Positions 872-34,280 of a stretch of 64,000 bases of DNA are shown one piece after another; position 1 is the stretch's first letter; each line of letters opens with the position of its first letter. Below the pieces are notes generated by a model that saw only the letters and a program-made list of their open reading frames with translations, did no database searches and was not told where the DNA came from. The position numbers and the translations under genes were made by a program. This DNA comes from Margaritifera margaritifera (lineage: Eukaryota; Mollusca; Bivalvia; Unionida; Margaritiferidae), in NCBI GenBank assembly GCA_029931535.1, contig JAQPZY010001670.1, forward strand, positions 7,502,501-7,566,500. Reading direction: 5' to 3'.

Positions 872-884
872 TACCCGTACGAAA
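872..884 (+). repeat. Left terminal inverted repeat with TA flank
   Basis: TA at 872-873 followed by CCCGTACGAAA. The identical 11-mer occurs in reverse complement at the other end, followed by TA. Confidence 0.85.
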
Positions 885-890
885 TAATTA

Positions 891-1240
891 GGCGGATTCC
901 GCCTGGAACTTAAGCAGACTCCAGGCGGAATCAGCCTAAAATGTTAAAAATCTGGTTAATTCAAAGGCGGACATGGAAACTTGGAGAAGTCAAAGATGAA
1001 TCCATCCAGAGTCCGTCTAACTCTAAGATGGACTTTTGTCAAAATTCCTGCTAATAATACCTCTTTGGGCATAATTTTGGACTTGGTTGATTTTCCAACC
1101 AACATCTAGGTGGAATTAGGAACTTAGTCACTGGCATCTATTAAATGAAAGGCGGAATCTGGACTTAGTTTATTTTCTAACCAATATCTAGGCGGAATGA
1201 AGAACTTAGTCATTTACATCAGTTAAATAATAGGCAGAAT
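891..1240. repeat. Left subterminal repeat array (AGGCGGAAT motif)
   Basis: It starts with the 13-bp palindrome GGCGGATTCCGCC at 891-903. Further AGGCGGAAT-like copies lie near 923, 963, 1107, 1149, 1189 and 1232, some with one mismatch. These are probably binding sites for an element-encoded protein, by analogy with TNPA sites of maize En/Spm; that is inference. Confidence 0.75.
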
Positions 1241-2864
1241 TTGGACTTGGCTTTTGTGTGTGACTGTAAAGTTAAATGTAAATTTTGACTTTTTTCATTT
1301 GTGCAAGAGCGATGAACTGAACCTTTGTATCATATTCATTTTACAAAGATAATGCTACTAAATTATAAATGACTGAAAATTTTTTTAAAAATAATACATG
1401 TAGAAAAAAATAATTCTGCAGGTTTTATTTTGTTTCATATATTCAAGCTTGGATGATTGGACTCGACAAATTTAAAAACAACATAAAGGTTCAGAATTTC
1501 TGAGGTGATGTATTCATTTCACAATGAATATGTTGGTATAGAGAAGTAAACTGTGCAACATCTCAGAGTCAATAACTGTAATTGACTCCAATTATAAATA
1601 AAGTCCATAGTTACCGATAAAGCAATCCCTTACTTTTACTAAAGCTTTGGTAACTTGGATTTGCACACTGCTTCATAATTTCCGATTTAAGTTTTAAAAA
1701 AATCATGTCTTGAAACTATCTAAAATCTTTTGCAAGATGTAGTTGGGGTATATCACTAAATGTATTTGAACTCGGATGCACACTTGTGGGATTCACACTA
1801 ATTTCTTCAAGATCACACAGCAAAACCAGTGGAAAACATGAAAATTGCATATCATATTCCAAACAATACCACCACCCGATTTTAAACTAGGGTATCCAAT
1901 TCTAAGCTGCTGACTCTTTAAAAAACACAGTTTATAAGTCACCTTATCCCCAGAGTTATATGATAACAGTACATTATTATTCTACCATGGCAAAAAAACT
2001 CAATAAAAAGGTCTGAAAACTTTAAAATGAATACTAGCAACTTGACTTTCTTTTATTTGTTTATTATTTCATGTGAGAATTAAATTTGCTTATAAAAGCT
2101 TATATGCAGTGATAAGCACACACTGAGACAAACTACACCTGTTCTGGAAAATGTACAAGTTGGTTTTGCTGGGCTTAATATACAAAAAAGATGTATATGA
2201 AATTCAACATTTATAAATCAGTATAATGAAGTAATCTACCATTTTCACTTTCATATATCTTGCAATTCAGATTAGTCAGACATGTGCCAGCAATCAATAA
2301 GCAGATAATTAATCAACCTCACAGTGATGAAAGAACCCTGGTCATTCCTGCATGGTTCATCTACATGGACCTATTCAGTCTTTATTGCCAGTAAGAAAAT
2401 TAACTCTAAAGTCTTCACATTATTCTAGCAGTCATTTCTCTTGTAAATAAATTGGGATGAATATAATTGTACAGATCCATATAACAGTAATATTATTTTC
2501 TAAATTCCGTCGGAATTAAGTAAACAAATAATTATATTAAAGTGATACACAGTTAATATTCTGCATGTGCAGGAACTATCTTTAGTTTTACTGTCTCTAG
2601 CACTCCTTTGATGCAGATAAGTTCTTCAGTATGTACAGTAGTCAAGGCTCAAAAACCATAAACTTTACACAATTTTCATATTTCTGAGGTTTTCTTTCAC
2701 TTTTATCAAATGAGATTATTTAATGCAAATAATTTGCCTTAGAATTGTCTGTTTTGTCATTTCTTGTACAAATATACAGCAATTTCCTCCTGGACACATG
2801 TAACAGGACAAATGACCATTTGTAATAAAAATACACAGTGACCATATGTTCCAGAAAATGCACT
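1241..2864. other. Non-coding left part of the transposon
   Basis: AT-rich sequence between the subterminal repeats and the transposase stop codon. It should include the transposase 3' UTR. A possible minus-strand AATAAA (plus-strand TTTATT) lies near 2382-2387. No coding signal seen. Confidence 0.5.
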
Positions 2865-4043
2865 TTAATCTGATTCCAACTTGTTGGGAAATCTGCAAAC
2901 ATAGAGTTTCTTTGCTCCTGGATACTCAATGAGCATACAGCTTGAAATAAGGTTCTGAATAGGTACTACCTGAAGATCCTTTGCTTTCATTACAGCTAAG
3001 AGGCTCAGTTGTTCTCCATAATTCAAACACTTCAGCTTTTCAATGAATGCTAGTGTCTGTTGTTCTCCATTTTCTGTAATTATAATAAAAAATCTTACTT
3101 GTCCAAGAGATCCTCCCTGTCTACTGTTATACTCAACAGTAGAGTTGTCCCGTTTCACCATTCGTGAATAAGCAAGTCCATAAATCACATTATCATTGAT
3201 TTCTACTCTGCTAAAGCTCCTAAATTTAGGTGAAACTGGTTCAAAACCAAGAAATGAATATAGTGCTTTGTTTTCTTCCTCTGTGAGAGCTCTTTCTTTC
3301 ACTCCACCTAAGATATAAATACCATTATCAACTCTGTCACCTCTTTTTAGCTGGCCTGGTGATTCAATTGAATTATACAGTTTTTCACAAAAAGATCCTT
3401 TTTTGATGCATTTTTGCTTCAATTCAGGTAACTTCTGCACGAATGACACTCCCGTCACAATCTGATTGTCTATATTCTGCGTGCCCCTTATCATTCTGAG
3501 AAGAACACCATTTTTGTCTTCAAATGAAAAGCAACTGTGCGTATAAAGCGGTCCAAGGTTGCGCACACTGTCTGGAAGATGTAAGAGTTGGTGAACATTC
3601 AGTCGCATAAAACATGTGTCATACATGGTCTCAAAATGTTTGCAAAAGTCAAGTAGCATATGTTCAGCTCGTTTAATGTCATTTTCATTTGAACCAAATT
3701 TCAGAAGAATGTGCATAGCATTTACAAGTAACAGATAATGAGAAAATCTCTCATGATCTAAGACACCATGTAGCACTGGCGCACCGAAGAATAATAGAAA
3801 GGACCGATATTCGGATGCCTTCCAATATTTCAGATCTTGAATAGATCTTGGTAACCTAGTGATATCAAGTGTTGGATGAATATTTAACAATCTTTTATCT
3901 ACTTCACATAATTTGTGGTAAATATTAAATGGTTTCTTATTGAGCTTGGGCAGAAACCACAATTCTAGTAAGAGCTTCTGCACACCAAGGAGGACGCCAT
4001 GCATGTAGTCTATTGCAATCCCAGTAACAATATTAAATCCAGG

Positions 4044-4050
4044 AAAAAAA
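4044..4050 (-). other. Frameshift in an A7 run of the transposase
   Basis: Upstream codons end …VKGIKGPS and the conserved continuation FFPGFNIVTG lies in the next frame. Removing one base from the seven-A run rejoins the frames. It may be a real mutation or a homopolymer error. Confidence 0.75.
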
Positions 4051-5070
4051 CAGTAACCATGATGGTCCTTTGATACCCTTAACAGCATAATTACTTGTAT
4101 TTCCAGCATTCTGATTTTGAACAGCAGTTCTGGCATTTTCAGTCACACTGTTAACAGTTCTTTCAGGACCCTTTGGAGTCCTTATATCAAAAGGAAACAC
4201 TCTGGCCTGGCCTTTTCCAACTGATGCAGAAATACCCTGCTGCTCACATTTCCAGCATGAATATGCACCATTGTACTGCATGTGATTGCACAGCAGACTT
4301 CCGGCAGGAAGATCTGCAGTACCACAAAGTAAAATACCCTTACATATGAAAGAACCTTTTTCTGGAGATTGACATTCAATGCCCTGATACAATTCCTTCA
4401 TAGTTTTTTGAAGAGGTTTCAAAAATGTTCCTATAGATGGTTTCTGACTCCCAAACCACAAGCTTGCTAGGATCATATTCTCTTTTTTCATCCGTTGTTT
4501 GTAAGGTAGCTCATTGATAACAAGAAAAATTGGCCAAACTGACACTTTACTGCTTTTGAAAACTGGTGCTCCATCTGTGTTAAATGTAAATGAAATGTTA
4601 TTTGGGTCACTTAGCAATCCATGACTGTCAAAATTAGATTTATAAAGCATACCATCATAAATATCTTCATAATGGCCACTTGGCGTGTTGCGTTTGAAGC
4701 GATGTTGAAGATTTTCATAAAAATCTTCATGGGCAAACAAGTTTTGAATTTGCTTTTTCAATGGTATTTCCAGAAAATAGTTTTCCTTACTTCTATCAAA
4801 GGGCTTCGCACAAAACTCAAATGGACATGTCTTACGTGAGCTGTCTTCAATCGGTCCTAAACAGTATGAACAGTAGTAGTGATACACTAAAGGATTACGC
4901 AGGTTTGTAAAAAAAATTTTAAACTGATAAAGGTTAGTACACAGATTGTGTCCACTTGGAAGAGTGAATGCAATTACATTAAGCAACTGTTGTATTGCAT
5001 CACCAACTAGATTGTACTTTGTTGTGAAGACCGCCAACAGTAGCATGAGAGCTCCAACTGTAACACAAGC

Positions 5071-5073
5071 TCA
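5071..5073 (-). other. Premature TGA in the transposase
   Basis: Reading frame is open on both sides in the same phase (…IFLYP before, ACVTVGAL… after), so this is a nonsense change in an otherwise continuous exon. A one-base change from GGA would explain it. Confidence 0.75.
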
Positions 5074-5313
5074 TGGATATAAAAAAATTGAATCTGCATC
5101 ATGTATTTGTTCCTCTTCTGAATCTGCATGTAAACCAAGTGTATCTTCTTCATCAGAATCTACAAAAAGTATGTCATCATGTTCCAGAATCTCATTATCC
5201 TCTAGAATTTCATTCAGAATTTGGTCTAATTCTGGGTCTGTGGTTTTGAGATCATTCTCTATAACTTTGTTAATATCAAAGCCTGCAGGACCATCATCTC
5301 CTCTATCCTCCTC

Positions 5314-6495
5314 CTGGAACAAATACAAAAATAAATCACTAGAATTATAACACTTTTTTATGAGTATTTTTTTTATCTAATACCATAGTTGTCATAACAT
5401 GCTAGAAGCCTTTTTTTTGGTGGGGAGTAAGGCAATCAGCATGAGCGAATGATATCATACCTGCTTTAGTATATTCTGGACATGTACTAATTTAATATAA
5501 TGCAGATGACATACTCCATGAAAGTTTCTGAGTGAATTATATACAGTGACAAAAGAAAAGATCTAATTATACACAATAATCGAAATTCTGGCATTTTAAA
5601 TTCCCCCACCCCAAACAACTCTCCAGCTTTATTGTTTGTCTTTAGACAAACAATTAGGCAATAAATATGACATATGTCAAAAGTTTCACATAGCATTACT
5701 GATACAGATTGCAATCTTCGTAAAACTATCTATAGTTATTATCTTTATTACTAATATCGGATTTAGCTTACATACGTTAAATACTGCAAATTCTCATACC
5801 CAAGATTACACTGTACCTAGACAATATAATACCATAACACACTACATAATTTCGGTCTGACATTCAATAATGTTTTTCCTTCGCATTCTGTATAAATATC
5901 TACAGGGTACATTCAAGAGAAGGAACCCAAAAAAATGTCAAGACTATCTGACATCAAGTTTCTGTGATTACTGAGGGGTTAAATTCTTGTGAGACAGTAG
6001 TTCCTTCAGAATACTCATCAATGCAAACTGTTACGTCATTCTGATTGTTTGTGATTCAATAGTATGGGTTGAAAGCAGACGAAAAGCGAAAATTCGAAGC
6101 TTATCTCCCCCCCCCCGTCCAAAAAAGAATTTTGTGAAAGTCACACAATAATCAAAGCAATCTCCGGCCTCCTCTGAAATGAGCCAGTGTACCGGGGCAC
6201 CGAACATAATTTATTTTCCAGGGGCAAGTTGCCTTAATAAACAAATTGTTTCCTATTTTGCCGGGAAATCGTAAATACAAATACAAATGTTTAAACTATA
6301 CAACGCTATAACATATTTGTTTAAAAATGAATACATTTTTACTTGGAAATAAATCTACGTGAGAGCAATACCCCTCATCCCCGAATTCGACTCCTCCCCC
6401 CCCCCCAAAAAAAGTTTTTTTCCTAACGCTTGATTGGGGGGTTGGGATGGAGCTGTCCTTGAATCACCGAAATAAAAAAAATAACAAATATTTAC
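5314..6495 (-). other. Transposase intron
   Basis: An 1182-bp intron with donor GTAAAT at 6495 and acceptor TTGTTCCAG at 5314. It holds short poly-C/G runs (near 6107 and 6394) and no coding signal of its own. Confidence 0.7.
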
Positions 6496-6747
6496 CGTTT
6501 CCGCTGCTGATAACTCCATATATTCATTAGATTCATCTTCAGACGCTACATCTCTCCTGGTTTCAGTGGCACAGTTTCTTCTTGCTGTACAAGTCGGTTG
6601 TGTTTCGAAATTAAAAAGCTTTGTCCCCACAAACGTATTGTCCATTTCACTTTTTGAAATAGACAGTCTCGGAAGTTTCATTTCAGCATCATAATTCCTA
6701 CTTCCATACGGTCCTCTGCGACGTTTTTTCGACTGAGAATCGGCCAT

Positions 6748-7192
6748 TTTATAAAATAAAAGATCTACCGAGAAAGGCTGCTTGAAATATGTGCTGCGAA
6801 ACAAAGATATACGGGCAATCCATAATTGGGGAACTAAGGGAACTTTCCCTTTTTATTAATGTTCAAAAACCATACTCTACTGCCATGTTTCGATTTTGGA
6901 AATAGGCTTTTGTTCACATAGAAATAAAATAAGTAATAACTTTAATGTCTTGATCGGAAAAATGTGTTCAAACTTTTTTATTTTTTTTTTTGTGTGTGTG
7001 TCGATAGCCGATATTTCATATTCCAATCCCAATGTGCGCCCCACACCAGTCTCAGCTGCTAGCATCATTGTTCATTTGCGCGCCAAGTGTTCAACGGTCG
7101 TAGAAAGCGGTCACTATCTTTGAAGATTGTTAACACTGAGAAGTTCATTTTTCGATCAGCATTCGAAAGGGTTGTAGAGTTCAACTTATATA
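6748..7192. promoter_or_regulatory. Divergent promoter region between transposase and BEN gene
   Basis: These 445 bp separate the two start codons, which face away from each other, so both promoters must overlap it. It contains a T-run plus GT repeat (6976-7000) and a more GC-rich stretch near 7020-7110 (including GCGCGCC at 7079). No clear TATA box could be assigned. The call rests on gene arrangement. Confidence 0.55.
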
Positions 7193-7979
7193 ATGTTTGC
7201 GTGCATTTATTTCGTGGAAGACAATTCTTTAAGTGTTGTTGGACAGAAAAGCAAGCGTCTGCAACTTCTTGGACAATTTAAAGAGAGGGAGAATGTGAAA
7301 ATGACCTGGGGAAAGGACTTGTTTCTAGGAACCATTGTGAAGATCCATGGTGAGTGTGTTTTGATTTATTGTAATACCTAAAAAATAAAAAGTAAGAGAT
7401 CCGAAGATGTTCTACAGACATTCAAACTGGTCTGTTATTAGTTTCATTTGTTTTTCTCTCTTTTTTTAAATTCCGTATCAGTGTATTGTATCCTCGCGGT
7501 ATCAGTTTCGGAGCCCTTAAGAAGAAATCGCGGAATAATTCGTAAACAATGTAAGTTTTATTAAAAGTTCATTTACACTTTGAATGATCGTTATAGCGGC
7601 ACTGAAAGTCAAAGCTTCAAACTATTTATGGCTACTGACCTTGGTTCCGTGAGAGTTTATTTATGTGTACTCCGTTTCGCTTACCTTGTTTATAACGTCA
7701 TCTGTTTCGGAGCGGTTGATCACAGCGCCACTCGCGGCCATCGTAGATATGATAAAAGACATGTATGGTTGCACAAACTGGCTACAATGGCGAACATAAC
7801 AATTGTCATCTTAGTATGAATCAATAATTTTATTTCATATTGTATTTCTATCTCTTCTGCTTAGTTTAATTAACAGAAAAGAATTAACAAATGTTGAGGG
7901 ATAATTTTTTAAGCTGGTTCAAACATAAAATTTAACTGTTAACTGCAAAATTATATATGTACACATGTGAACACTTTCT

Positions 7980-8282
7980 TTAAACATCTGTACAGTCTGC
8001 CATAGTTTTCCTTGGCATTTCGGGATGACAGGGACAGTTGAAGACCTCATTCCGCCTCAAGACTCTTACTTCGGTACAATACTTCAAATGAACCCAGTGA
8101 CTGCATCCTTGAACACAACACTGTGCCCAACTGACGAATTCGATGTAATCATTGTGTTTCATGGCCTCTGGCTGTTCTTGTTTGCATACACAGCATGGTT
8201 CACCATCATCTACAAACTCAGAGTCTTCCGTTTCTTCCGATTCCCGTACTGATGTTACATGCTTGCCCGATGGACCAGTCAT
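7980..8282 (-). CDS. PHD-type zinc-finger protein nested antisense in BEN-gene intron 1
   Basis: A 100-codon intact frame. After an acidic leader it has a cysteine/histidine pattern typical of PHD fingers: C-x2-C at about residues 30-33, WAQCCVQGC at 53-60, HWVHLKYC at 62-69 and FNCPC at 81-85. It belongs with small metazoan zinc-finger proteins of the type 'CCVC…HWVHL…C'. The frame stays open upstream of the ATG to about 8337, with acceptor-like AGs near 8300-8310, so this may be the last exon of a longer gene. PHD fingers usually read histone tails. Here the protein could target the element or its transposase to chromatin, which is inference. It carries no lesions, unlike the two large genes. 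Confidence 0.65.
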   Translation of the reverse strand: MTGPSGKHVTSVRESEETEDSEFVDDGEPCCVCKQEQPEAMKHNDYIEFVSWAQCCVQGCSHWVHLKYCTEVRVLRRNEVFNCPCHPEMPRKTMADCTDV

Positions 8283-8659
8283 ATTAACACCATCTGACTG
8301 GATCTTAATAGGGTGTGTAAAGGTATCAGAAAAAATTTACAATGATTGAACTTGTAAGAAATATGTTATATAGCTTTTGTGGATTGCTTTATCCGGCCAG
8401 GAGGGTTGGGTAGACCAACACGTTGTCCGCCGGGGGGGGGGGGGGGGGCAAGAACAACTTATAAATAGGTCTAGAGGGATTTTACTTACCATATACATAC
8501 CAAGGTCAGTCTAAATAAATTAAGTACTAGCAAGCTGCCAGTTGACATAGTAAATCAGGGGGTGAAAGCTTCATTATGAAATTGTGTCCCATAAGGTTGG
8601 TCCCCTCTACTGGTAATGTAAAAAATGAAAGCGGGGATTTACTCTTTGGTCTACATCAG

Positions 8660-8910
8660 GAAATCATGGCAGTCATCTGGAAAATCTTGCTTTCGATATG
8701 ACTCCTACAAAAATGATCATATTATGAGGTTTCCATTAAGGTTCCAAATAAAAATTGTGCCGATTTCAAGTTCAATATGGCAGCCATAAGGAGATGGTCA
8801 TATCAACATGGGATTTTTGCTAAAAGATTTCTTTTTCATATCTAGTTGATCCTTAATGCTAATCTGGCCTCAAATATGGCCATCATGGCAGCAAAGCACA
8901 TGTACTCATA
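8660..8910. repeat. Interspersed repeat inside intron 1
   Basis: Motifs such as 'caatatggcagccat' and 'ctcaaatatggccatcatggc' resemble the tandem units at 30850-34280, in the opposite orientation. It is probably a diverged fragment of the same repeat class. Confidence 0.45.
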
Positions 8911-9556
8911 GCAGTTCTACATTTAGTTCTCAGACTTCTGATTGGTGCAACTCTCTACAGCCATTGTTCCATGGAACTCAGGCTCCAAGCTGGCATTTGC
9001 ACTAAATTTCTTTAAAATTAAGAGTAATTTTTATAAAGGCATGTATAATTTTCTACTAAAGAATAATCATAATATTTTCTATTGAAATGTTACACATTCT
9101 GCTGATGTCACTGAGTGTAGTTTTGAATTTAAATTGAGAAGAAAAAGATAAAGCTGATCCTATTTGTGCACATATAATTTTGTGTCTTTACTTTATAACC
9201 ATAATATGAAATAATATAAAAGAATGAAATGAACTTTAAGTTTCTGGTTCAAGTTTTATGAATTTGACTTTTAGGCTTTCCTTCTTTGCAAAACTGAAGC
9301 AGTTGCATTGTGTTGACTGTTTTTGAATGTAGCTTTAAATTAATTCTTCACTGCCTTATATTTCAGAAAGTGAAGATTATCTCACAGATTTTGCTACAAA
9401 GGCAAATGCACAGATTTTAAAGAAAGTAAAGGAAAGACCTTCAGAGGTACCTAGAGAACTGTTTACCTTCGATCATTTAACCAAAACTGATGGTAAGCGA
9501 CAACACAAGGAAACAAAAAAAATAAAAGAAAGCCGGCAACAGGAGAAGGACTTTAG

Positions 9557-9784
9557 CCCAAGAAAAAGAGCAAAGTAACTGTGCAGCCTAAAGGTAACAC
9601 TACAGAAAAACAAAATAGTGTAGACTCAACCAACCCCACGATTGTAAACAGCCAGAAAAGAAAAGTACTGGAAAAGTCAAATTTGTCCATATGTAACCTT
9701 CTAATGAGTGATATTGCCAACCAGTTTGAGAATGATTCCTCAGTACACCATAACGAACCATCTTCAAAGTTGACAGTGTCATAG
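9557..9784 (+). other. Frameshift and nonsense codon in BEN-gene exon 2
   Basis: The frame reading KDFSPRKRAK ends at TAA 9576-9578. Clear coding resumes one frame over from 9557 (…KSKVTVQPKGN). That frame meets TAG at 9782-9784 and then continues (IHGQCAES…) to the donor at 10065. One lost base plus one point change explains the pattern. Confidence 0.6.
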
Positions 9785-10064
9785 ATACATGGCCAGTGTG
9801 CAGAATCAACAGTGAGGCAGAACTACCCATTACCGAAGTCCCCAATACAGCAAAATGACTGTTCTCTGCAAGTATTGGAACCAGTCCAAATTGCAAATGT
9901 TGAAAAGCCAGTAGGTGATCAAGTACCACTATCTTCAAGAGCATGTGCATCCACAGCAAGAGAGAATGAGCCACCAATGTACACCCCACTGACGGCTACT
10001 TGGTCTTTATGTACCAGTACTTATAGACCAGATGATAACCCAGGAAATCTCTTCAATCATCCAG

Positions 10065-10887
10065 GTAAAAAATCTTTTAGGATTGTAAAGCAACCAGTAG
10101 CAGACAGAGTGCATAATAGTTTCCTTCTGGGTCAGTAACCCACTATATAATAAAGACCAAAGGGTACAATCCAGTGAAAATGATAAACACTATCTAGCAT
10201 CAAGTTCCTGTGAGTACATAAGTCCTGTTTATAATTATAGTCACAATAGCACATTACAAATGAGAAATTGGCCTCAGATTAGACTATTTTAAATTGAAAT
10301 TCAAGGGGATGCAATAAATGGTCCACTTCTGCAGATAACCAGTTTTGGATGACAATTATCCATCATTAATCATCAATAATCCTAACTAATTACAGATTTC
10401 CAAGTAGAATTAGTATGCCAAATGAAGCTAAGTAATAATTTACCAAATGCTGGACATGTGTGCATAGCACTGGATTTGGATTCATGCTCCACCACCACAA
10501 TAAAGGAAAACAGTTACAGTTTACAAACTGCATATTTATCTGGAATAAGGTTGATGAAGATGTTGGAAGCTTTTATTTTCACCTGTTTAATTTTTGTGCT
10601 TCAGTTAATAATTCTGACCAGTTATTAAACTTCATCATAATCAAAGTGTGTCTCCACCAGTACAGTGTAAGGATGCAAATATGCTGGTGAGGCAGTATTT
10701 CTTATGGTGAATTGCTAACAAGTTGCACATGTCCACTGCATGGTCATTTTTCATATATTGGTAACAGTAATATTATATATTTTAAAATAGTTAACATGTG
10801 AACACAAGTTCACATGTGCAGGCGAGTATGGCTTTGTCCATTGTTTATAAAATAATCATTACACTTCTTGTTTTGTTGCAATTTCAG
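10065..10887 (+). other. BEN-gene intron 2
   Basis: Intron between CCAG|GTAAAA and AATTTCAG. It contains a perfect 10-bp inverted repeat with a 4-base loop at 10794-10817 (ACATGTGAAC arms). No other signal seen. Confidence 0.6.
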
Positions 10888-12163
10888 CACCTCCACCAGC
10901 CATTTTGGACTTGTTTGAAGCTCTCTGTCAACCCAATGTACAAAATTATCTACAGCTGTTTGTTCATCACTATAGAAATCAAAGACAGAATGCCAGCAGC
11001 TTCTTCCCAAACGAGACAAACTACTCGGAGGTTGGTAGAATTTATAATTAAATAAAGATCTAAAAATGTCCTGCAGTGTTTGTCATCCTCTTTGGAGGAA
11101 GCTGCCAGTGCTTACTTTGGCATCCATGTGTGTCCAAACGTCTTTCCCAGTCACTCCACACCTTAGATTAACTTCAGTGTTTTAGTATTTGTAAGTTTCA
11201 TTTTATTTCAGTACCATCAGATTCATCCTTCTTTGGTTTTGGAATATAGCTTCAGTATACACCTAGTCAATATTTAACTGAGCTGTTATAATAATCCAAA
11301 TTTGGGGCAAGACATGGCATACTTCTTATTTTAGCAAAATGCAAGTTTTGGGATGGATGTGGCTACAAACTCAATCCATTTATTTTTCTGTCCACACTAA
11401 TTGTAAGTAAAACTTTCCGAACACACAACAGCATCCACCATGATATGAACATTGGAAGTCACTTAGCTCTTTCCCCCCTGTCTGCAGCCCCAGATAGCTG
11501 TGAGGTCAAATGTAAAAATAGTAACATAATTGGATATTTCTGCATATGATTAATGGTATGTGCACTCATCTTTTTGACATGATGTACAGATAGGTTTTAG
11601 ATTTGGTTTTCCAGACTTACTCCTGGAAGGGTATGGATGGGATGAAGTTAGTAAAGTTGGGACTTTGCAGGGAATATTAAAAATGACTTTGTCACAAACA
11701 GTGCACCAAATTAAACTATTTGAAGGAAATGATAACAAACCAAAGACAGTTTCATTTTTGTTTAATGGATACAATCTCAAGGGCCAGCTGTAGGTTAGGG
11801 CATTATAAATGACAGCAGCATAAAATGTAATTATCAACTCTCTTTCAGAATGGCACAGAATGGACTACACAGGCATCACTGCAGTCAGTGCAGGAAAGTG
11901 AAAACGGGTTTCAGCAGCCTTTACAAAGCAGTTTGTATGGAGCCAACAACTGCACAAGTTCACAGGATTTATTTTTACCTTCAGTACAGCAGGATTGTAA
12001 TCCTAATCCTGTGAAAAGACAAGAACATGGGCCCCACTCATTCCCACATTCTCCATGTGTGAGTCCAATATTACCAAAAGCAGCATCTACCCCAAGGCGA
12101 TCGCCAAGAAAGCTTAAATACCAGGTTGATGATTTTGGTGTTGAGCAAGAGAGAGATGATGAT

Positions 12164-13126
12164 GTAAGTGTTGTATTGTTGAGTATATATGAGAAGTACT
12201 GTAGTAATAATTAACCTATCCACCATGATTTGTAAAGATATAGAATTAGGTTATGTCTGTGCATTTGTTACCTTGTCACTTTTAGGTTATAATTTAACCA
12301 CTGTTCAGGATGTGTTATATATAGCAGACAAATTAGCTGCTTTCATTTTAGGGCAGTCACTCCAATATCATGAGATATGTTTATGAAGCTTGGTGGTTGT
12401 ATCTAACAGTGGTAAGAACATATAGTGTTTCCTTTGTATGCCCATGCTTCAGTAAGCCACAACTTAATGGAAATTTGCTTTTAGGTCATTTAGGAACTGT
12501 GGTTTGTTAAACTATTCATACCATCAACACATGTCTAGCCTTGTTGTCTCTAATTTATCAATACGTTTAAAATTCTAAAGAAATGTTGTCAGTTTGGCCA
12601 CATTTGTAGCCTATAGGCCTCCTGTGCTTTAACAAGTGGATTTATACATCCTCTTTACACCATAATTATTCTCATTTTTAATATTATTTTCAGTAAATTT
12701 TCAGTAAATTATTTTGAATTCATTTGTCACCAAACATATATTAAGTTAGAAATACAAATCTCTGCATTCTTGTCCTTCTAAATCATTCTTATCCATATTT
12801 TTGCTCCTACCTTTTATCAATAACTGATATAATCTTTCATCCCTTGTCTTATCCCTGTATCTATCTCTTCACTATTGGCAACTTTATGAAATGTTAGTGG
12901 CACAAATTTCTTTATTTATTCTAGATTTAGCTTAACAAAGTCAAAAGCTTTTGTTAGTAGTTTACAAAAATGATGTACATATATATTAATTATTTCATTA
13001 TTAATTAATATCTGCTTTTAACCTGCTCCTGTCAGATATAAATGAATTTAAAAGATCTTACGAGTACTTGTATTTTGTATTGTATAAATATATTCATTAA
13101 AATATTAGTTTTTTTAATTTTTGCAG
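12164..13126 (+). other. BEN-gene intron 4
   Basis: AT-rich intron from GTAAGT to TTTTTGCAG. No recognisable content. Confidence 0.6.
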
Positions 13127-13364
13127 ACTGTCAGACTACTGGCTTCTTCAGATATTGTTGTAAAACGATCTGAATTGCGAAAAGCAACTTCTGCAGCAAC
13201 TAAAGCAGCACCCAAAAAAGCAGCATTCACATTGGCCAGCAAACTCTTGCCACGACTGTTTTCATGGCAAGAGTTGGCCATGTCTCGTGGACAAGGACTA
13301 CGCACAAAAAAAGCTGGGGACATAAGACCACCCTTGCATTATGCTAGAATAGAAGTTCTCAAAG

Positions 13365-14088
13365 GTAATTACTATACAGGGAGAGAATCTGATGCTTCTT
13401 AAGATAAAATACCATAAAATTAATTGTTAAAGTAGAGCTGAACTAGGGGCAAATTATGATGATGCTCGAACTGTGAAATGCATTAAGCAAGTATTACATG
13501 AAATATCAGCTTATATTACATATTTACATCATGGCATAACTCTATTTATACAGTACTATTGTCCTAGCATTTGAACTGAATCCAGCTTATATGACTTAAA
13601 ATATAATACACAGAATCTTAACATTTTTGATACAGTAATGACATCATAGCTGGAAAAGTTATACCTATATCTTGCCATTGACAGGCTTCACAGTGAGTAC
13701 AGGGAAATGGTCTGAGAATCCCCAAAATTCAGTAAATTGCTTATGTTGATTGGGAAAGGATAGTGTGTGTGTGTGTGTGTGATAGAGATCAAAACTTGAC
13801 CAGATTCAAAAGAAGATTGCAATTATCTTCATTTACATACTGTAATGTCATTAGACCTGTGTTTGCAATATGACATTATAAATCCCGATTGAAAAAGGTT
13901 TTCGTACATTTTTATGAGCACTTTTGATTTAATATTACTTTATCAAATACTCCTAACAATACTTAAAATTTGTGTATTATGTTGAATTGCTAAATTCACA
14001 AACTTGATTGAGACCAGAAGTATGATTTACAGTACACTTTGTTGAGCCAGTTGGATGTTATTTGTTGTATACTTTACTTTTTTGCCAG
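13365..14088 (+). other. BEN-gene intron 5
   Basis: Intron from GTAATT to TTTTTTGCCAG. It includes a short (GT)n run near 13764-13780. Confidence 0.6.
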
Positions 14089-14270
14089 ATTATGTGATAG
14101 CATTGTGCACTAAAAATGGAAAAGAGGTAAAAGAGCAAGACATCAATGATGCTGTAACTGAGCAAGTCAGTTATGCAAGAAAGAAACTGAAGTTACAGTG
14201 AAAACTTTTGGAACTGCTGTGTAACAGATGAATATCATTGGAACAGTTTTAAAATATTTTGTTTGGAGTG

Positions 14271-14276
14271 AATAAA
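14271..14276 (+). terminator. Polyadenylation signal of the BEN gene
   Basis: AATAAA lies 70 bp after the stop codon at 14199-14201. A second AATAAA occurs near 14514. Confidence 0.6.
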
Positions 14277-14289
14277 TGATGCTGTTAAT

Positions 14290-15110
14290 TTGATTTTCAT
14301 TTGAAAACGTTCAGTGTTTGCACATACATAGTTTTAGGTTTTGGAGAGTTTAGGAAAAGTGGCTAATGTTTATAAGATAAAAAAATGATTAGCTAAAAAT
14401 ATTGTATAAATGTGACACACAACCCAGTCTTTATAAAGCTTGTAATTTGCACAATGTCTTTCTTTTCAGAATGTACTAATTGGTCTATTTGTCTTCTGTT
14501 ATAAGGTTGATTAAATAAACTTTAGTTACTGTGTGTCAGTATGTGTTATTCATACAAGCACAATATGCTAATTATTTAGCTTTGCAGATACATATGATTG
14601 TGTGTAAACTTGTTGAGATAAATATTAATTATATTTGTCATTGACTGTCAGTTCACTCATACAAGATAGTTCACAGTTGGTAACATACATGTAATTGTAA
14701 ATTTCTGGTTTATCATTCGACTGTCCCATGTATTTACATTTAGAAGTCGGGTCCAGTTCATAATTGTTCTATCCTTTTTAATCATTTTTTTCCAGTTAAA
14801 AGATGTACATGTATTCTGTTCTTGGCCAAAATGAAAATAAAAATGGAATAAGTAAAATGTTGAAATCAATTTTTATTTGCTGTAAATTACCCACTAGTCT
14901 GCGATCCAATGCATTTAATAATTATCTAATGAACGGATTAAATTGTGTTTGGTTCTGGTCTTAATTTCACTAGATGGAATCTTTTTCCACGCTGAAGGCA
15001 TTTTGCTTGCAGCTCTGGGTGGAGATTATTTCTGGGCAAAATTTCTGCAAGGTGGACCAACATTTTGACATTTTCATTACTGGATGGGTTTCTGCAGGTA
15101 TTTCCATCTA
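14290..15110. other. Non-coding right part of the transposon
   Basis: AT-rich sequence between the BEN-gene poly(A) signal and the right subterminal array. No coding signal. Confidence 0.5.
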
Positions 15111-15120
15111 ATTAGAAGAA

Positions 15121-15587
15121 AAGATTCCACCTAGTAACAGTAATTTGCATATTTTGAGCTATATTCCATCCTGAATCTGCCTAAAAGTGATAATAAGGGG
15201 AATCTAGGCTAAATAAGCGGAATAAACAAATTCCGCATAGTAGTAGTAGGCGGAATAAACAGATTCCTCCTAGAGTAATTTGCATATTTCGAGCTATATT
15301 CCACCCTGAATCCGCCCTGAATCTGCCTTAAAAGTGATAAGCGGAATCTAGGCTAAATAAGCAGAATAAACAGATTCCGCCTAGTAAGTGGAATAAACAG
15401 ATTCCGCCTAGTAGGCGGAATAAACAGATTCCTGCTAATAATAGACGGAGTAATTTGCATATTTCGGGCCATATTCCGCCCTGAATCCGCCCTGAATCCA
15501 CCTAAAATTTATAATAAGTGGAATCTTAGGCTTTAGGTGAAATCCGCTTTAAAATTCCACCTGGAATCTGGTTAAAGTCAGGGCGGA
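15121..15587. repeat. Right subterminal repeat array
   Basis: At least a dozen copies of AGGCGGAAT or its complement, some with one mismatch (for example near 15216, 15230, 15248, 15340, 15374, 15401, 15413 and 15473). Several form inverted pairs about 26 bp across, spaced by AAACAG. A longer unit beginning TAATTTGCATATT recurs at about 15139, 15275 and 15451. This array is denser than the left one. Confidence 0.8.
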
Positions 15588-15590
15588 AGT

Positions 15591-15603
15591 TTTCGTACGG
15601 GTA
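15591..15603 (-). repeat. Right terminal inverted repeat with TA flank
   Basis: TTTCGTACGGG followed by TA, the exact inverse of the left end. Confidence 0.85.
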
Positions 15604-16065
15604 TTACTAAAATAAAAAAACCTTAAATAACTTCCAAATAACCACTTAACAGAAATTGACCAAATTTGACAAAAAGTGTCCTAGATTGAATACCTTTCAG
15701 ATTGTTACAGATGATTCTGTTCCACTACCAAATATCACAGCCATTACTAAAAGTAAAGAAACATTTACACAACTTTATCTTGAAAAACACTGAACTGAAT
15801 TTTATCAACTTTGACACAAAGTATCCTGGTATAGGGGCCTTTCAATGTTGGACAAATTATGCTGATGTGCCATCAAATATGGATGAAGATACAAAAACTT
15901 GAGAAACCTTGAAACGATTGTTTTCATAACATCTGCAATCAAAAGCATTGAAAGAAATTTCAACAGAAAGCATCCTACTGCTATCATATTTAGTTATAAT
16001 AAGCAGATGTTAGCCAGGTAAGCAAATTCAGACCCACTTGGGCCTTGGACCTCTTGTTTATGCAT
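15604..16065. repeat. Right half of the interrupted tandem repeat
   Basis: It begins 'ttactaaaataaa', continuing the unit cut at 871. One full unit reaches about 15745 ('cacagccattactaaaa'). Another ends with 'ccatcaaatatgg' near 15880. The array closes with 'gggccttggacctcttgttta', a common ending of such repeats. Confidence 0.7.
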
Positions 16066-17369: not shown

Positions 17370-18070
17370 CTGGGTGCATTTAGAACATCCCCTTCAGAAA
17401 TCTTTGTGTTGAGGCAAATAAACTCAGTTTATCTCAGACAAACAAAATTGGCTCTTAAGTAAACCAAATTTCATCCCACCTTTTGGCATACAAATTCATT
17501 TTTATTTAGAAACATCAAAAATCAATGCTGGAATACTGAACAATTCTATATTCCAAAATCTCCACCTTGGTTATCAAGCCCCATCTCCCCCAATAATATT
17601 TGATTTGTGACAATTCATAAAGTCCTTAACAAATTCTCTCCTTTTTTGGAGCAAATTCATTGAAATCAGGACCACTTGTCCTGGTCATACACCCCTTTAT
17701 ACAGATGGTTCAAAAGAGGGAGACAATGTTGCATCTGCCATTGCAACACTCTATGGCACCATCTTGAGCTGGTTACGGGATAAAGCCTCCATTTTTACCT
17801 CAGAAATTTCAGTAATTCTCAGATCTTTGAACTATATTGAAACCTATCAAAAAACTAAATTTTCATAATCTTTTCAGATTCCCTTTCCACAATGAAAGCC
17901 TTGCAAATAAACCTTAAATATGACAACCCATTATTATCCCAGATCTTACAGAGACATGCCATACAATCTGGAAAAAGTATTCTGTACAGTTGGCTGCCTA
18001 GTCACATTGGTATTAAGGTTAATGAAAGGGCAGATAAAGCAGCAAAAGCTGCCCTGCAGTCACCCATTTC
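17370..18070 (+). pseudogene. LINE RNase H domain fragment
   Basis: The plus strand encodes the RNase H end of a non-LTR retrotransposon ORF2. Near 17375 it reads RTSPSEIFVLRQ…RQTKLALK, matching the segment before the domain. Near 17697 it reads LYTDGSKEGDNVASAIA, with the first catalytic Asp in YTDGS. Near 17990 it reads SWLPSHIGIKVNERADKAAK, with the usual H…N…D block. Several stops and frame changes separate the blocks, so it is dead. Jockey/I-like elements carry this domain. No reverse transcriptase is visible next to it, so the copy is truncated. Confidence 0.85.
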
Positions 18071-18275
18071 TGAATGGAAGATTCCATATACTGACTTCAG
18101 ATATTATATAAATCAGTTTTTATGTATACTTGGCAAACTATGTGGAATGAAGACTCCACCAATATGCTTCATAAGATCACAAATATTATATCTTGGTGTT
18201 ACATTTATTCTCTTTGTATTCATTTTACATGCCAGTAACACCCACCCCCTCCACCTTTCAGAAAATTGTTCTTTA

Positions 18276-18449
18276 ACCCTTTGCTGTGCAATGACGCATT
18301 TTGATAGCAACCCCTTTACTGTACAATGACGCATTTTGACACCTTTATTGACAAATCCGATTAAGGTGCCCAGTGCAACTAAAAGAAAGTCTTTACACCG
18401 ATAAATCTAGAAACTAAATATGAAGCAAATCATTAGTTTAATCGCAGGG
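18276..18449. mobile_element. TTAA-flanked MITE, possibly piggyBac-like
   Basis: TTAA at 18272-18275 and 18450-18453 bounds a 174-bp sequence beginning CCCTTTGC and ending GCAGGG. A motif around CTGTxCAATGACGCATTTTGA occurs twice, about 35 bp apart. TTAA duplication with CCC/GGG ends is typical of piggyBac-type elements, but the inverted repeats are short. Confidence 0.5.
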
Positions 18450-21233: not shown

Positions 21234-21370
21234 GAGCAAGAGAGAGATTAAAACTACTATCAGATCCTGAATTGCAAATATTTATTTAAGCAACTGGTGC
21301 AAGTCAAGTTCTTTCTTTCTTTTGACTGATGTTTGTTCTTTATAAAATCCAAAAGTCTAAAGAATACATA

Positions 21371-24300
21371 CCGTATATACTCGCTTATAAGTCAACGTTT
21401 TTCACTTAGAATTCGATTCATACAGAGTAGGTGTCGTCTTATAAGCGCGACATTAAAAAAAATAAAAAAATCTTGGGGTAATGTTGGAAACTCTAGATGT
21501 TTGCAGTACATAAAAATACTGTCAGTTCATATACTTTTACGTTTTCATGCCACTATTCCTATGCAGTAATGCATATATGACATGCACTGTGTTTATCCGT
21601 TTCATGACGGTATTCATTACACAATACATGTATCTACAGTTATTTGGGTTTTATTAATTTGAAAATATTACCGGTAAATTAAATACTACCTTCCGCAAAA
21701 TGAAGTGTCCGTCAATGTTTACCGTGGGTGTTTACTAGTAAGTATATTGCCTCCATTTTCGTGCAAGTCCAAACAACCTGTATTTGTATAAATATTTGTG
21801 TTTTGCTGTGTAAAGACTGTGCTTGATGCAATAAAAGTTTTGATTTAATTTGTATTTTCCTTTTCCACAAGTCAGATTTAATTCCCAATTGATATTTCCC
21901 AAGTTATCTGCCAGTGCACGTGGGCTGATAAGCCTTTGGCTTGTAAAGGGACTCACTTTGTTTTAAAGTTGACAATCCTTTTGATCGAGCCGCCAATCTA
22001 TACTTGTTCAGTGTCAAGTAGAGTTCTACAACTTCCTGTGCATATACTTTGACCTTAGTCCCTTTGCTTGTAAAGGCACCACACTCTTTGTTTTCCCACA
22101 TGACAACCCTTTGATCAAGCCACGAGTTTGATACTTGTTCAGTGCCAAGTAACAAAGGGTGGCTATTTGAACTCCCTGTGATCTTGCCGCACAATTATTA
22201 TGTGTTCAGTTGCAGCCTTTAATAGATTTCTGACTTTTTGATCAAAGTGTTACTCACAGAGCCCATGCTCAGTCTCTGCATAAGCACCCGCATATGACAG
22301 TAAACCAGAGATCGGAGTCGGACGAGATTTATGATGACTAGATGACGATGATTTACAATGACTAGACAATGATGTAGGATTTCAGAACTTTAACAGACAA
22401 TGAGGATTAATTCTTGGACAATGTACCAGATGACATTAGATAGTGATATTTATAGGATACCGTGAATCACAAAAACGTGGACTTAACTTTCATTGTTTGT
22501 TTGTACGATGTGTGGAATTAACATATTACGGGTTATTGTGAATCGGATCATCCTGAACTTCTATTTTTATACCAGTATGTGACCTATACCATATTTGCCG
22601 GCCTATAAGTCGATACTTTTTGACCTGGAAGTTTGGGCTTCGTCTTATACTCCGAATCGACTTATATAAAAATTAAGTCATTGAAATTACTTTACCGTAA
22701 AAAAAAAAAAAATAAAAAAAAAAAATTCAAAGTACGAAAAGTATAGTGTAAAAAAATAATTATCATTTTTGGGAAGAGATCGTGTGCGAAAAAATATTGG
22801 ACCCGACATGGAGAAGGATTTCGAAATATTTACGTGATTGTCAGTGTTAAATTCGCGTGCATCAGACGTAATTGCGCTAAAGCAGCATGCACTAGTAATA
22901 TATGTTGTTTGAGTTTGCTTACATATGTGTGTAGTAGAATAGACAAGTTAGAAAACGGATAACCATGACATTGACATGGGTATTCCATTGCACATTTTCT
23001 TATTGCATCTTGTGATCGAAATAAAAGAGAGAGACAGAGATTTCAGCCCTTGTTCATGCTATTTTGCTTAATGTACCTTACTGACCCCTTTTAGCTGAAG
23101 CTTTTGTCAAAGAGAGAAAACAGTAATGAAATAGTCAATGGAAATTAAAACAATACATACCATACTCCTTCAGTTTCAAAGATATATAATTTATATTTAA
23201 ATATTCACAATATTTATATTCATATAGACTCCATTTAGTTTAAATCCCAAGATGACCATTTAGCATGCTTTTTTTTTTTTTTTTTTTTCTTCAAATACAA
23301 TGAACTCTATATTCCCACGAAATAAAATTACCCTTTATCAGTAAGTGCATGTACACTTCCTGTAGTTAGGCAGCATTTTAGTTTGATCTTTGCTCATGAA
23401 TTCAAAGCTCTGACGCTTCTGTCGGCGAGATCAAAAGATGTCACTGGTTGAGAAACTTACATGAGCAAGCACCTGGCATTACAGGTCATTACACAGTCCT
23501 GCATACATTAACATGCTTTACAGGATCGATTACAATACCCTATGGGTAGCCTCATTTCCCTATTGGTAGCCTCACTAATTTGATCACATCTACTGCAGGT
23601 GTCAACTGGAATGACCTGGCCAAAGCTGTAGGCATATTTAATTAAAATGTAAATAACACTGCAAAGCCAGTTGGTTTTTTTATGATAATGGATATAAAAA
23701 CAAGAATGAACTGTTTATTCAGAGATATTAATTGATAATGGAATACAGTAATGCTCCTGTACATGAGTAAGATCGCAATCATCAGGTAACTCAACAATAC
23801 ATATTACAATCATCCTGTAACCTCTCTCTCTCCAAAAGCTACAAGTAAAAAGTGCTCTGAATGCATATGTTCTTACACACTGACACAGCGTTGTTTCATC
23901 CTCTCTCTCTCACACACATTCACACAGACGCACATGCACGCATTCACTAAAAACAACAAGTCTTAATCGAGTTCTTTTAGTTTTTATTCTACATATAATT
24001 TGATAATGAGGTTACTGTTGCTGTAAGAATACAAGTTGTACTTATTTTTTGACAACAGGAGTTCATATAATTGCGTACAATGTACCAATAAATAATACCT
24101 ATAAATAATATGTGTACAGACCATCTTAATCATTTTCGCAATTAATCTGGAATAGCATAGTGATACCATTAATATTCATGAAACCCGAAGTTACTAGCGA
24201 AAGTGACGAAGCCAAGGTGTTGATCTGGCTTCGTTTTATACTCTGCATCAACTTATATATGGATGAAGGATTGAAATTTGACGAAATTAGCGAATTCGAC

Positions 24301-26017
24301 TTATACTCCGCATCGACTTATAGGCCGGCAAATACGGATTGAATTCATGGATTTATCATATAAATGGATTTAAAATGTCAAGCATTATGGATTTCAATGG
24401 ACTTTATTACACAAAGATGGACAAATTGTAAGTTGTCAATTTATTTGTGACATATTTCACTCAATAATATAATTGTATTTTACACTGGTTTTGTCTTTAT
24501 TTTTCTTATCCAGTTTGGCTTGTTTATATTTCCAAAGTGCAAAAAGTCAATTTCTCTTTGACCCTCCTATAAGTCGTGGTGTTATTTGCAAGTCAGATCT
24601 GTCTGAAGGGGTGACTTCTCAGTGAGACAGAAATGCACTTTGGAAATATAAACAAGCCAAACTGAATAGATAGATAAAAAAGAAAAATAAATTGACAACT
24701 TACAATCTGTACATCTTCGTGTAATAAAGTCCATTGAAATCCATAATGCTTGACATTTTAAATCCATTTATATGATAAATCCATGAATTCAATTATAGGT
24801 CACATACCGATATAAAAATAGTAGTTCAGAATGATTCGATTCACAATATCCCGTAATATGTTAATTCCACACATCGTACAAATAAACAATGAAAGTTAAG
24901 TCCACGTTTTTGTGATTCACGGTATCCAATAAATGTCACTATCTAATGTCATCTGGTACAAAGTCCAAGAATTAATCCTCATTGTCTGATAAAGTTCTGA
25001 AATCCTACATCGTTGTCTAGTCATTGTAAATCATCATCGTCTAGTCATCATAAATCTCATCCAACTCCGATTCCTCGGCGTTACTGTCATATGCGGGTGC
25101 TTATGCAGCGACTGATCATGGGTTCTGCAAGTAACACTTTGATCATGAAATCAGAAATCTATTAAGGATGGAACTGAACATGTATCAATTGTGCGGCAAG
25201 ATCACAGGAAGTTCAAATAACCACTCTGTGTTACTTGGCACTAAACAAGTATCAAACTCACGGCTTGATCAAAGGGTTGTCACGTTGGAAAACAAAGAGC
25301 GTGGTGCCTTTACAAGCTAAGGGATTAAGGTCAAAGTATATGCACAGGAAGTTGTAGAACTCTACTTGGCACTGAACATAGTATTAGATTTGCAGCTCAA
25401 TCAAAAGGATTGTCAACTTGAAAACAAAGTGAGTACCTTTACAAGCCAAAGGCTTATCGGCCCAAGTGCACTGGCAGATAACTTGGGAAATATCAATTGG
25501 GAATTAAATCTGACTTGTGGAAAAGGAAAATACAAATTAAATCAAAACTTTTATTGTATCAAGCACAGTCTTTACACAGCAAAACACAAATATTAATACA
25601 AATACAGGTTGTTCGGACTTGCACGAAAATGGAAGAAATATACTTACTAGTAAACACCCACTGTAAACAACATTGACGGACACTTCACTTTGCGGTAGGT
25701 AGTATTTAATTTACCAGTAATATTTTCAAATTATTAAAATCCAAATAACTGTTGATACAAGTATTGTGTAATGAATACCATCATGAAACGGATAAATACA
25801 GTGCATACCATATATGCATTACTGCATAGGAATAGTGGCATGAAAACGTAAAAATATATGAATTGACAGTATTTGTATGTACTGCAAACATCTAGAGTTT
25901 CCAACATTACTCCTAGATTTATATTGTTTTTTTAATGTCACGCTTATAAGGTGACCCCTACTCTGCATGAATAGAATTTTAAGTTAAATATGTCGACTTA
26001 TAAGCGAGTATATACGG
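21371..26017. mobile_element. Foldback DNA element with arms of about 1.4 kb
   Basis: The left end is CCGTATATACTCGC at 21371 and the right end its complement ending at 26017; both are flanked by TA (21369-21370 and 26018-26019). The two halves are long inverted copies. For example, the block 'cctgtatttgtat…' near 21780 is matched near 25605, and the inner ends 'ggcttgtttatatttcc' at 24515 and its complement at 24640 leave a loop of about 90 nt. The left arm is interrupted by another element (22589-24337). No transposase gene is visible, so it is non-autonomous. A related partial copy lies at 32790-33540. Confidence 0.75.
22589..24337. mobile_element. Element nested in the left arm of the foldback
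   Basis: The ends are complementary: CC(A/G)TATTTGCCGGCC at both sides, followed by TATAAGTCGAT. The uninterrupted sequence in the right arm ('ggtcacata' region at 24795) shows that the arm was continuous before insertion. No clear target duplication. The interior has A- and T-runs and no coding signal. Confidence 0.7.
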
Positions 26018-26019
26018 TA

Positions 26020-30849: not shown

Positions 30850-31997
30850 TAACTACTGAGTGTTGAAACCATCTCAGCAATAAGATTTTCAAATTAGCTT
30901 CTGAGGTACACACATTGGATGTCAGCTTCACATCATTTTCATTAGGACAAAGTAGACGTCATTAAAAGTCATTTGGTGAAAACCCCATGTCATAAAGATC
31001 ATCCATTCAGGGGGTATAGCAACAAAAAGATTTTTAAGACAGTCATCATGGCAGCCATATTGGTTGTATGACTGGCACCATTTTCATTTTGGACCAACTA
31101 GATATCATAAGAAGTATATTGCTGAAAACCCCATGTCGATATAGTCATCCATTTGGAGATGAGTAGAGATAACAATATTTTAAAAATATGACTTTCCATT
31201 TAGGAGTAACAACGATTTTCAAGATGGCTGCAATGACGGCCATACTAGACATCAGATATGTGCCATTTTCATTTAAGACCAACTGGATATCATAAGAAGC
31301 CTTCTGGTGAAAACCCCACATCAATATGACTTTCTCTTCAAGTTGTGATAACAAGATTTTTAAGATGGAAGATGGCTGCCATGATGGTCAGATTAGCATC
31401 ATTTTAATTTAAGACCAGCTGGACATCATAAGAAGCATTTGAATGAAAACCCTATGGTGATACAACCATCCATTCAGTAGGAGTAGCGATAGCAAGATTT
31501 TCAAGATAGCTGTCATATCAGCCATACTTTACATCAGATCAGCACCATTTTCATTTAGGACCAACTAGACATCAGAAGAAGTATTTTAGTGAAAACCTCA
31601 TGTTGATATGACCATCCATTCAGGAAGAGTAGCAATATCAAGATTTTCAAGATGACTGCTGTAGCAGCCATATTGGATGCGAGATGGGCACCATTTTCAT
31701 TTAGGACCAACTAGACATCATGAGAAGTCTTTTAGTGAAAACTCAATGTTGATATGACCATCCATGCAGGAGGAATAGCGATAATAAGATTTTCAAGATG
31801 GTCACTGTGGCAGCCATATTGGATGTCAGATCATCACTATTTTCATTTAGAACCAACTAGATATCATAAGAAGTCTTTGTGTGAAAACCACATGTTTATA
31901 TGACCATCCATTCAGGAGGAGTAGCAATAACAAGATTTTCAGGATGGCTGCCATGGTGGCCATATTTGACATCAGATCGGCACCATTTTCATTTAGG
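30850..31997. repeat. Tandem array of about 147-bp units, left part
   Basis: About eight degenerate units share landmarks 'accattttcattta', 'gaccaactagacatcat', 'gaaaacc', 'gaccatccattcaggag' and 'caagatggctgcc'. The array resumes at 34082 after a hAT insertion and ends near 34280 with a 'caagataatcctccaag…agtaacaaac' tail. Confidence 0.85.
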
Positions 31998-32789: not shown

Positions 32790-33540
32790 AGAAAAAACCA
32801 GTGTAAAATACAATTAGGTATATTATCTAGTGGAACATGTCACAAATAAATTGACAACTTACATTTTGTTCTTTATCGTGTCATAAAAATCCATAGAAAT
32901 CTATAATGATTGACATTTTAAATCCATTGATATGATAAATCCATGAATTCTATCATATGTCACATACCAGCATAAAAATATTAGCCCAGAATGATCCGAT
33001 TCACAATATCACATAAAATGTTAATTCTACACGTCTCACATATAAACAATGAAAATCAAGTCCACACTTTTGTGATTCACAGTATCCTATAAAGGTCACT
33101 GTCTAATGTCATCTGGTACAAAAGCCCAAGAATTCATCCGCATTGTCTGAGTGACCAATTATAGTGCTGAAATCCTCCATCGTCGTCTAGTCATCATAAA
33201 TATCGTCCGACTCGATTCCTTGTCTTTACTGTCATATGCGGGTGCTTACGTGGAGACTGAACTTGGGCTCTGTAAGTGACACTTCGATCATACAGTCTAT
33301 GAAATCTATTAAAGGATGCAACTGAACAGGTGTCAATTGTGCGGCAAGATCACAGGGAGTTCAAATAACCACTCACTGTTACTTGGCACTGAACAAGTGT
33401 CAAATACATGGCTCAATCAAAGGGTTGTAATGTGGAGAAAACAAAGAGGGTGCTAAGGGATTATGGTCAAACACGTATATGTAAGACGTGTAGGACTCTA
33501 CTTGGCACTGAACAAGAATCAAATTAACAAGGTATAAATC
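32790..33540. repeat. Partial copy of the foldback arm
   Basis: Ordered blocks 'aattgacaacttaca', 'aatccatgaattc', 'gattcacaatatc', 'tgtctaatgtcatctggtac' and 'atatgcgggtgctta' match 24690-25400 in the same orientation. Confidence 0.75.
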
Positions 33541-34081: not shown

Positions 34082-34280
34082 TTTAGGACCAACTAGACAT
34101 CATAAGTCTTTTAGTGAAAATTCCATGTTGATATGACCATCCATTAGCGATAACAAAATTTTCAAAATGGCTGCTGTGGTGGCCACATTGGATGTCTGAG
34201 CAGCACCATTTCATTTAGGACCAACTAGACCATGGAATGAATGTGTGTATAAAGTTTCAAGATAATCCTCCAAGTAGTTT
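34082..34280. repeat. Tandem array, right part
   Basis: Continuation of the array at 30850-31997, starting with TTTAGGACCAACTAGACAT. Confidence 0.8.

Follow-up and report, generated by a model that had tools for sequence, protein, structure and literature searches.

The CACTA superfamily includes animal members called TRC elements: SmTRC1 together with relatives from Aedes and from Tribolium, described by DeMarco et al. in 2006 (PMC1636069). In the parts of that report consulted, TRC regions outside the transposase domain are described as not detectably conserved. The Hydra element Spongebob is another CACTA relative with CCC ends and a 2-bp duplication (PMC4298943). The CACTA elements Tam1 (17 kb) and soybean Tgmt* (20.5 kb) each encode a transposase and a DNA-binding protein; TNPA binds subterminal repeats, and TNPA and TNP1 are little alike (PMC2613891). 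A further precedent comes from Tn3-family TnpA, in which the transposon's inverted repeat is read by a domain, DBD1, with a BEN-like fold (PMC9579193). Here, we describe a locus of Margaritifera margaritifera that shares features with several of these systems. We think it probable that it represents a single insertion of a TRC-type CACTA/EnSpm element encoding a TNP2 transposase and a BEN protein, the latter acting on the element's ends in the manner of TnpA.

The locus was studied in a window of 64 kb, i.e., the whole stretch of DNA that was analysed. In it, positions 874-15601 constitute one element of 14,728 bp with terminal inverted repeats (TIRs). Its borders and end regions are as follows.

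872..873, no strand: left copy of the TA target-site duplication, from the letters and the empty-site alignment
874..884, plus strand: left terminal inverted repeat, CCCGTACGAAA
888..1248, no strand: left subterminal repeats, comprising AGGCGGAATC motifs, an inverted pair and a tandem repeat
14976..15588, no strand: right subterminal repeats, comprising AGGCGGAATC-like motifs in both orientations and 27-bp and longer repeats
15591..15601, minus strand: right terminal inverted repeat, the exact reverse complement of the left one
15602..15603, no strand: right copy of the TA target-site duplication, from the letters and the empty-site alignment

The initial annotation had claimed perfect 11-bp inverted ends, a TA on either side, and flanks that together make up a single unit of a local repeat; all three were confirmed. 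Indeed, 874-884 and 15591-15601 match perfectly over 11 bp. How often would such ends arise by chance? In 60 Markov simulations of the window, with spacings of 1-30 kb allowed, TA-flanked perfect 11-bp inverted pairs numbered 7.4 on average and 14 at most. The real window holds 84, the majority of which stem from one fold-back repeat and from simple repeats. Not one of the simulated windows contained a pair beginning with CCC, and pairs with at least six G/C letters averaged 0.13. Taken alone, a TA-flanked perfect 11-bp inverted pair is weak evidence in AT-rich sequence.

The flanks are more telling. When they were joined with a single TA, the reconstructed empty site aligned across the junction with the repeat unit at 698-796 (73.4% over 109 columns) and with that at 15729-15827 (73.7% over 99 columns). 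A third, looser row (15604-15913; 65.1%, 312 columns, 37 gaps) also spanned the junction. The local alignment scores were 52.5 and 42.5, against maxima of 28.0 and 28.5 in 200 shuffles each.

The two ends also have a motif in common. Allowing at most one mismatch, AGGCGGAATC has 13 matches in the 64 kb where 0.8 would be expected; 12 of these are near the termini, no more than about 330 bp from the left end or 480 bp from the right, and the remaining one is at 8048. The left subterminal region further contains a 20-nt inverted pair (888-907/920-939) and an 82-bp tandem repeat (1078-1248). Such subterminal repetition of a short motif is characteristic of CACTA/EnSpm elements of the TRC type. 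Because the empty-site alignment spans the junction, the motif clusters sit at both ends and a transposase lies between them, we regard the insertion as solid; the earlier proposal that one large TIR element with two genes inserted here once is supported. The competing explanation, that two unrelated short TIR elements bracket host genes by chance, draws on the frequency of TA-flanked 11-bp inverted pairs as such. We consider it very improbable in view of the junction alignment, the subterminal motif common to both ends and the TNP2 transposase enclosed by them, and because no further copy of either end was found inside the 64-kb window.

Other repeats are present in the window. A fold-back-like repeat has arms of about 1.2 kb each (21369-22588 and 24794-26019) around a 2.2-kb middle; the arms align in four blocks that are 91-95% complementary, and a related stretch lies at 32955-33120. 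An RNase H-like fragment at 17892-18329 (plus strand; E = 0.0012) and an integrase-core-like fragment at 40257-40862 (minus strand; E = 0.00039), both below the Pfam cut-off, are probable retroelement remains.

The transposase gene lies on the minus strand.

6496..6747, minus strand: probable first coding exon, starting MADSQSKKRRRGPYG..., border by eye
4045..5313, minus strand: 5' part of the main exon, with the Transposase_21 domain
2865..4060, minus strand: 3' part of the main exon, with DYMH at about 4013-3999 and the catalytic Glu in ASEYRS at 3818-3801

Its exons thus run from about 6747 to 6496 and from 5313 to 2865 (minus strand), with borders placed by eye. The first contains a basic RRGPY stretch that resembles the starts of two relatives, P0002 and P0034. 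The window's transposase matches Transposase_21 (TNP2) with E = 9.9e-16 and 58 bits (cut-off 28.6), and the domain is also present in 11/11 aligned relatives. In the 5' part of the main exon, the first D occurs in NTDG and the second in TADLPA, together with a CxxC. The two D residues, the C(2)C, the DYMH and the E are invariant in all 11 aligned rows and are present in the window's pieces. These residues make up a DDE triad that has C(2)C and H motifs between the second D and the E, as defined for the superfamily in the consulted part of PMC12730594; the assignment of residues to these motifs is our own. A single in-frame stop near 5071 and a single frameshift near 4045-4060 break the gene in this copy.

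A search with the window's transposase pieces returned 287 matches, and the relatives considered here were drawn from the best 120. Closest among these is P0001, which is 96% identical over the searched part and has an open frame on a 3.5-kb contig. Rows from bivalves (Mytilus, Saccostrea, Pinctada, Ostrea, Mercenaria) show 55-74% identity and those from cnidarians 44-51%. P0001 gave a structure model of low overall quality (mean pLDDT 58); in Foldseek, each of the top seven rows for this model is a chain from a RAG complex (best E 1.2e-5, TM 0.26/0.32), as expected for the CMCT clade as presented in PMC12730594. Residues 671-814 of P0001, corresponding to about 3329-2898 of the window (minus strand), are predicted to adopt a BAH-like fold that is closest to BAH1 of DNMT1; sequence-level support for this BAH-like C-terminus was sought and none was found.

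These features place the element. CCC termini with a 2-bp target duplication, as in animal TRC elements, were found, and together with the Transposase_21 domain they establish membership in the known superfamily: within CACTA/EnSpm, the element belongs to the animal TRC type. CACTA termini with a 3-bp duplication, which define plant En/Spm, were absent. The ends read CCCGTACG and the duplication is TA, which rules out a plant-type CACTA element (En/Spm); the element is therefore filed under the animal TRC type.

The second gene is on the plus strand, divergent from that of the transposase, and includes a nested open reading frame (ORF).

7193..7349, plus strand: BEN gene exon 1, encoding the N-terminal region, Tudor-like by the fold of the relative P0123
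7980..8282, minus strand: nested cysteine-rich ORF of 100 aa, a candidate gene in intron 1 of the BEN gene
9367..10064, plus strand: BEN gene exon 2, with its 3' border placed after P0121
10888..11030, plus strand: BEN gene exon 3
11849..12163, plus strand: BEN gene exon 4, linker with an RRSPRK motif
13127..13364, plus strand: BEN gene exon 5, first part of the BEN domain
14089..14201, plus strand: BEN gene exon 6, end of the BEN domain and stop

The encoded protein is predicted to be weakly Tudor-like at its N-terminus and to carry a DNA-binding domain of the BEN type at its C-terminus; for a relative, the modelled fold agrees with the BEN domains of NACC1, Bsg25A and Insv. At the level of the protein family, both the BEN fold and a profile match were obtained, the window's own sequence scoring 21.5, under the Pfam cut-off of 23.2. 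The gene is broken here by one frameshift and one in-frame stop, both in exon 2; accordingly, the window copy is decayed in both genes. That there are two spliced genes, as was first annotated, is supported by homology and by GT-AG borders seen by eye. The third, nested gene of that annotation stands only in part: the 100-aa ORF is present, and as a gene it is a candidate. It had no protein family match in the profile search, and its cysteine spacing is one that we take to be PHD-finger-like. Also in an intron of the element, 8793-8858 resembles a dispersed repeat found at 31552-31616, 31698-31762 and 34082-34141.

Does the BEN gene belong to the element? A search with its protein gave 16 matches, which were compared with the best 120 of the 287 transposase matches. 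Three of the 16 are on contigs equal in printed size to one bearing a listed transposase match: Saccostrea cucullata (437,941; LOC134229281 and LOC134229283), Mytilus edulis (912,883) and Saccostrea echinata (7,031,926; LOC133199606 and LOC133199711). From these identical printed sizes, we infer that the two genes share one contig in each of the three species. In a fourth case, Ostrea edulis, the BEN and transposase matches have only a 94-Mb sequence in common. The other 12 had no same-contig transposase among the matches listed (best 120 of 287); seven of these are on sequences of 43-190 Mb, where a transposase match would say little about pairing, and five on sequences of 1.08 Mb and 56, 42, 21 and 5.5 kb. 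When additional BEN relatives were sought by profile, there were 10 matches and no new pair.

Gene trees were built from 9 transposase rows and from 12 BEN rows (the window and 11 of the 16 matches). In both, S. cucullata stands apart from its congener S. echinata, which groups with M. edulis and the O. edulis protein P0134. The transposase tree supports this group at 99/97; the BEN tree does so at 87/92, and this value, at the deciding branch, is below the tool's mark for strong support. The matching split of the Saccostrea pairs is what would be expected if the two genes travel together. Distance matrices for five pairs, with P0001 in place of the window's transposase and one pair at chromosome level only, correlated when the BEN C-terminus was compared with the transposase (r = 0.75; 3/120 permutations); with full proteins, the correlation was not significant (r = 0.44; 19/120 permutations).

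Judged from these comparisons, the transposase-BEN pairing seems to recur in oysters and mussels, and its presence in other bivalves argues against chance neighbours. It also bears on the idea of a one-time capture, in which CACTA ends came to enclose an ordinary BEN gene of a bivalve. In favour of this, hosts normally have BEN genes, 12 of the 16 BEN matches lack a same-contig transposase among the matches listed, and capture of host gene fragments by CACTA elements is described in PMC8978399. Against such a capture, the pair occurs on equal-sized contigs in three other species of two genera, and the relatives show identical N-terminal and C-terminal architecture. On balance, we find a single capture improbable.

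Returning to the two-component element, how might it work? Its borders, duplication, genes and motif clusters are read from the DNA itself. By analogy with its family, the transposase would cut the element at the CCC ends and join it to a TA target. The BEN domain, we infer, binds the clustered AGGCGGAATC subterminal motifs; this binding would make the ends ready for the transposase, a task that TnpA has in plant En/Spm. Cooperation of the two proteins and mobility of the element are likewise presumed. The BEN protein may also regulate the element. A rather less likely alternative gives it no end-binding role equivalent to that of TnpA and treats it instead as cargo or as a regulator, e.g., a chromatin or silencing modulator that aids escape from host repression. 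Several solved BEN domains are bound to DNA target sites, according to the titles of entries 8yzs, 4ix7 and 4x0g, and a motif clustered at both ends would suit a reader; both points speak for a TnpA-like role.

A recurrent BEN partner, if true, would tell us what the second component is in one lineage of animal CACTA elements, raise the direct question of whether BEN binds the end repeats, and provide a mobile-element setting for this domain. It is chiefly in chromatin factors and in viral proteins that the BEN domain is known, as the title of the 2008 BEN paper also indicates. RAG2 is the chromatin-reading partner of RAG1. A tentative wider reading, which we hold to be possible but doubtful, is of a widespread bivalve lineage of RAG1-like CACTA elements in which the Tudor-like/BEN protein would be a dedicated end-recognition partner and the transposase would carry a C-terminal BAH-like histone-reader fold, both coupling DNA cutting to chromatin state in parallel to RAG2 with RAG1; on this reading, animal BEN proteins could in some cases have their origin in elements of this kind.

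Compared with known systems, the element most resembles the TRC elements, which, as described in PMC1636069, likewise have CCC termini, 2-bp direct repeats, Transposase_21 and short TIRs (10 bp in Aedes). Spliced transcripts are described for them, whereas splicing of the window's genes is deduced from homology and GT-AG borders; the Aedes element is 9.2 kb long, versus 14.7 kb here. Unlike the TRC elements as presented there, this one has a second gene, in divergent orientation, for a BEN protein. With plant En/Spm, Tam1 and Tgmt*, it shares a DNA-binding partner, clustered subterminal repeats and large size (PMC2613891). The plant elements have CACTA ends and a 3-bp duplication, in contrast to CCC ends and TA, and plant TnpA and TnpD are described as products of one transcription unit by splicing, in contrast to two divergent genes. 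The BEN protein is likened to TnpA-type proteins by proposed role, not by sequence comparison. The CMCT clade has mostly CA..TG termini in the account of PMC12730594; those of the window element are CCC. No RAG2-like partner was seen in the window element. The ends and duplications of RAG1/Transib differ from its own, the Transib target duplication being 5 bp.

The initial annotation had called such an element unusual for this transposase class and a candidate for an undescribed system. The former is not supported, given the size and the transposase and DNA-binding protein of Tam1 and Tgmt* (PMC2613891) and the CCC/2-bp animal relatives (PMC1636069). As for the latter, the superfamily type was described in 2006 (PMC1636069); what stands is the BEN-domain second gene, which was not found for CACTA elements in the portions of the BEN and CACTA literature consulted. 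In Tn3-family TnpA, the BEN-like fold resides within a bacterial transposase, while here it belongs to a separate eukaryotic protein. Superfamily, size and two-gene layout are already known; the BEN-domain partner gene is, on the literature consulted, the new part.
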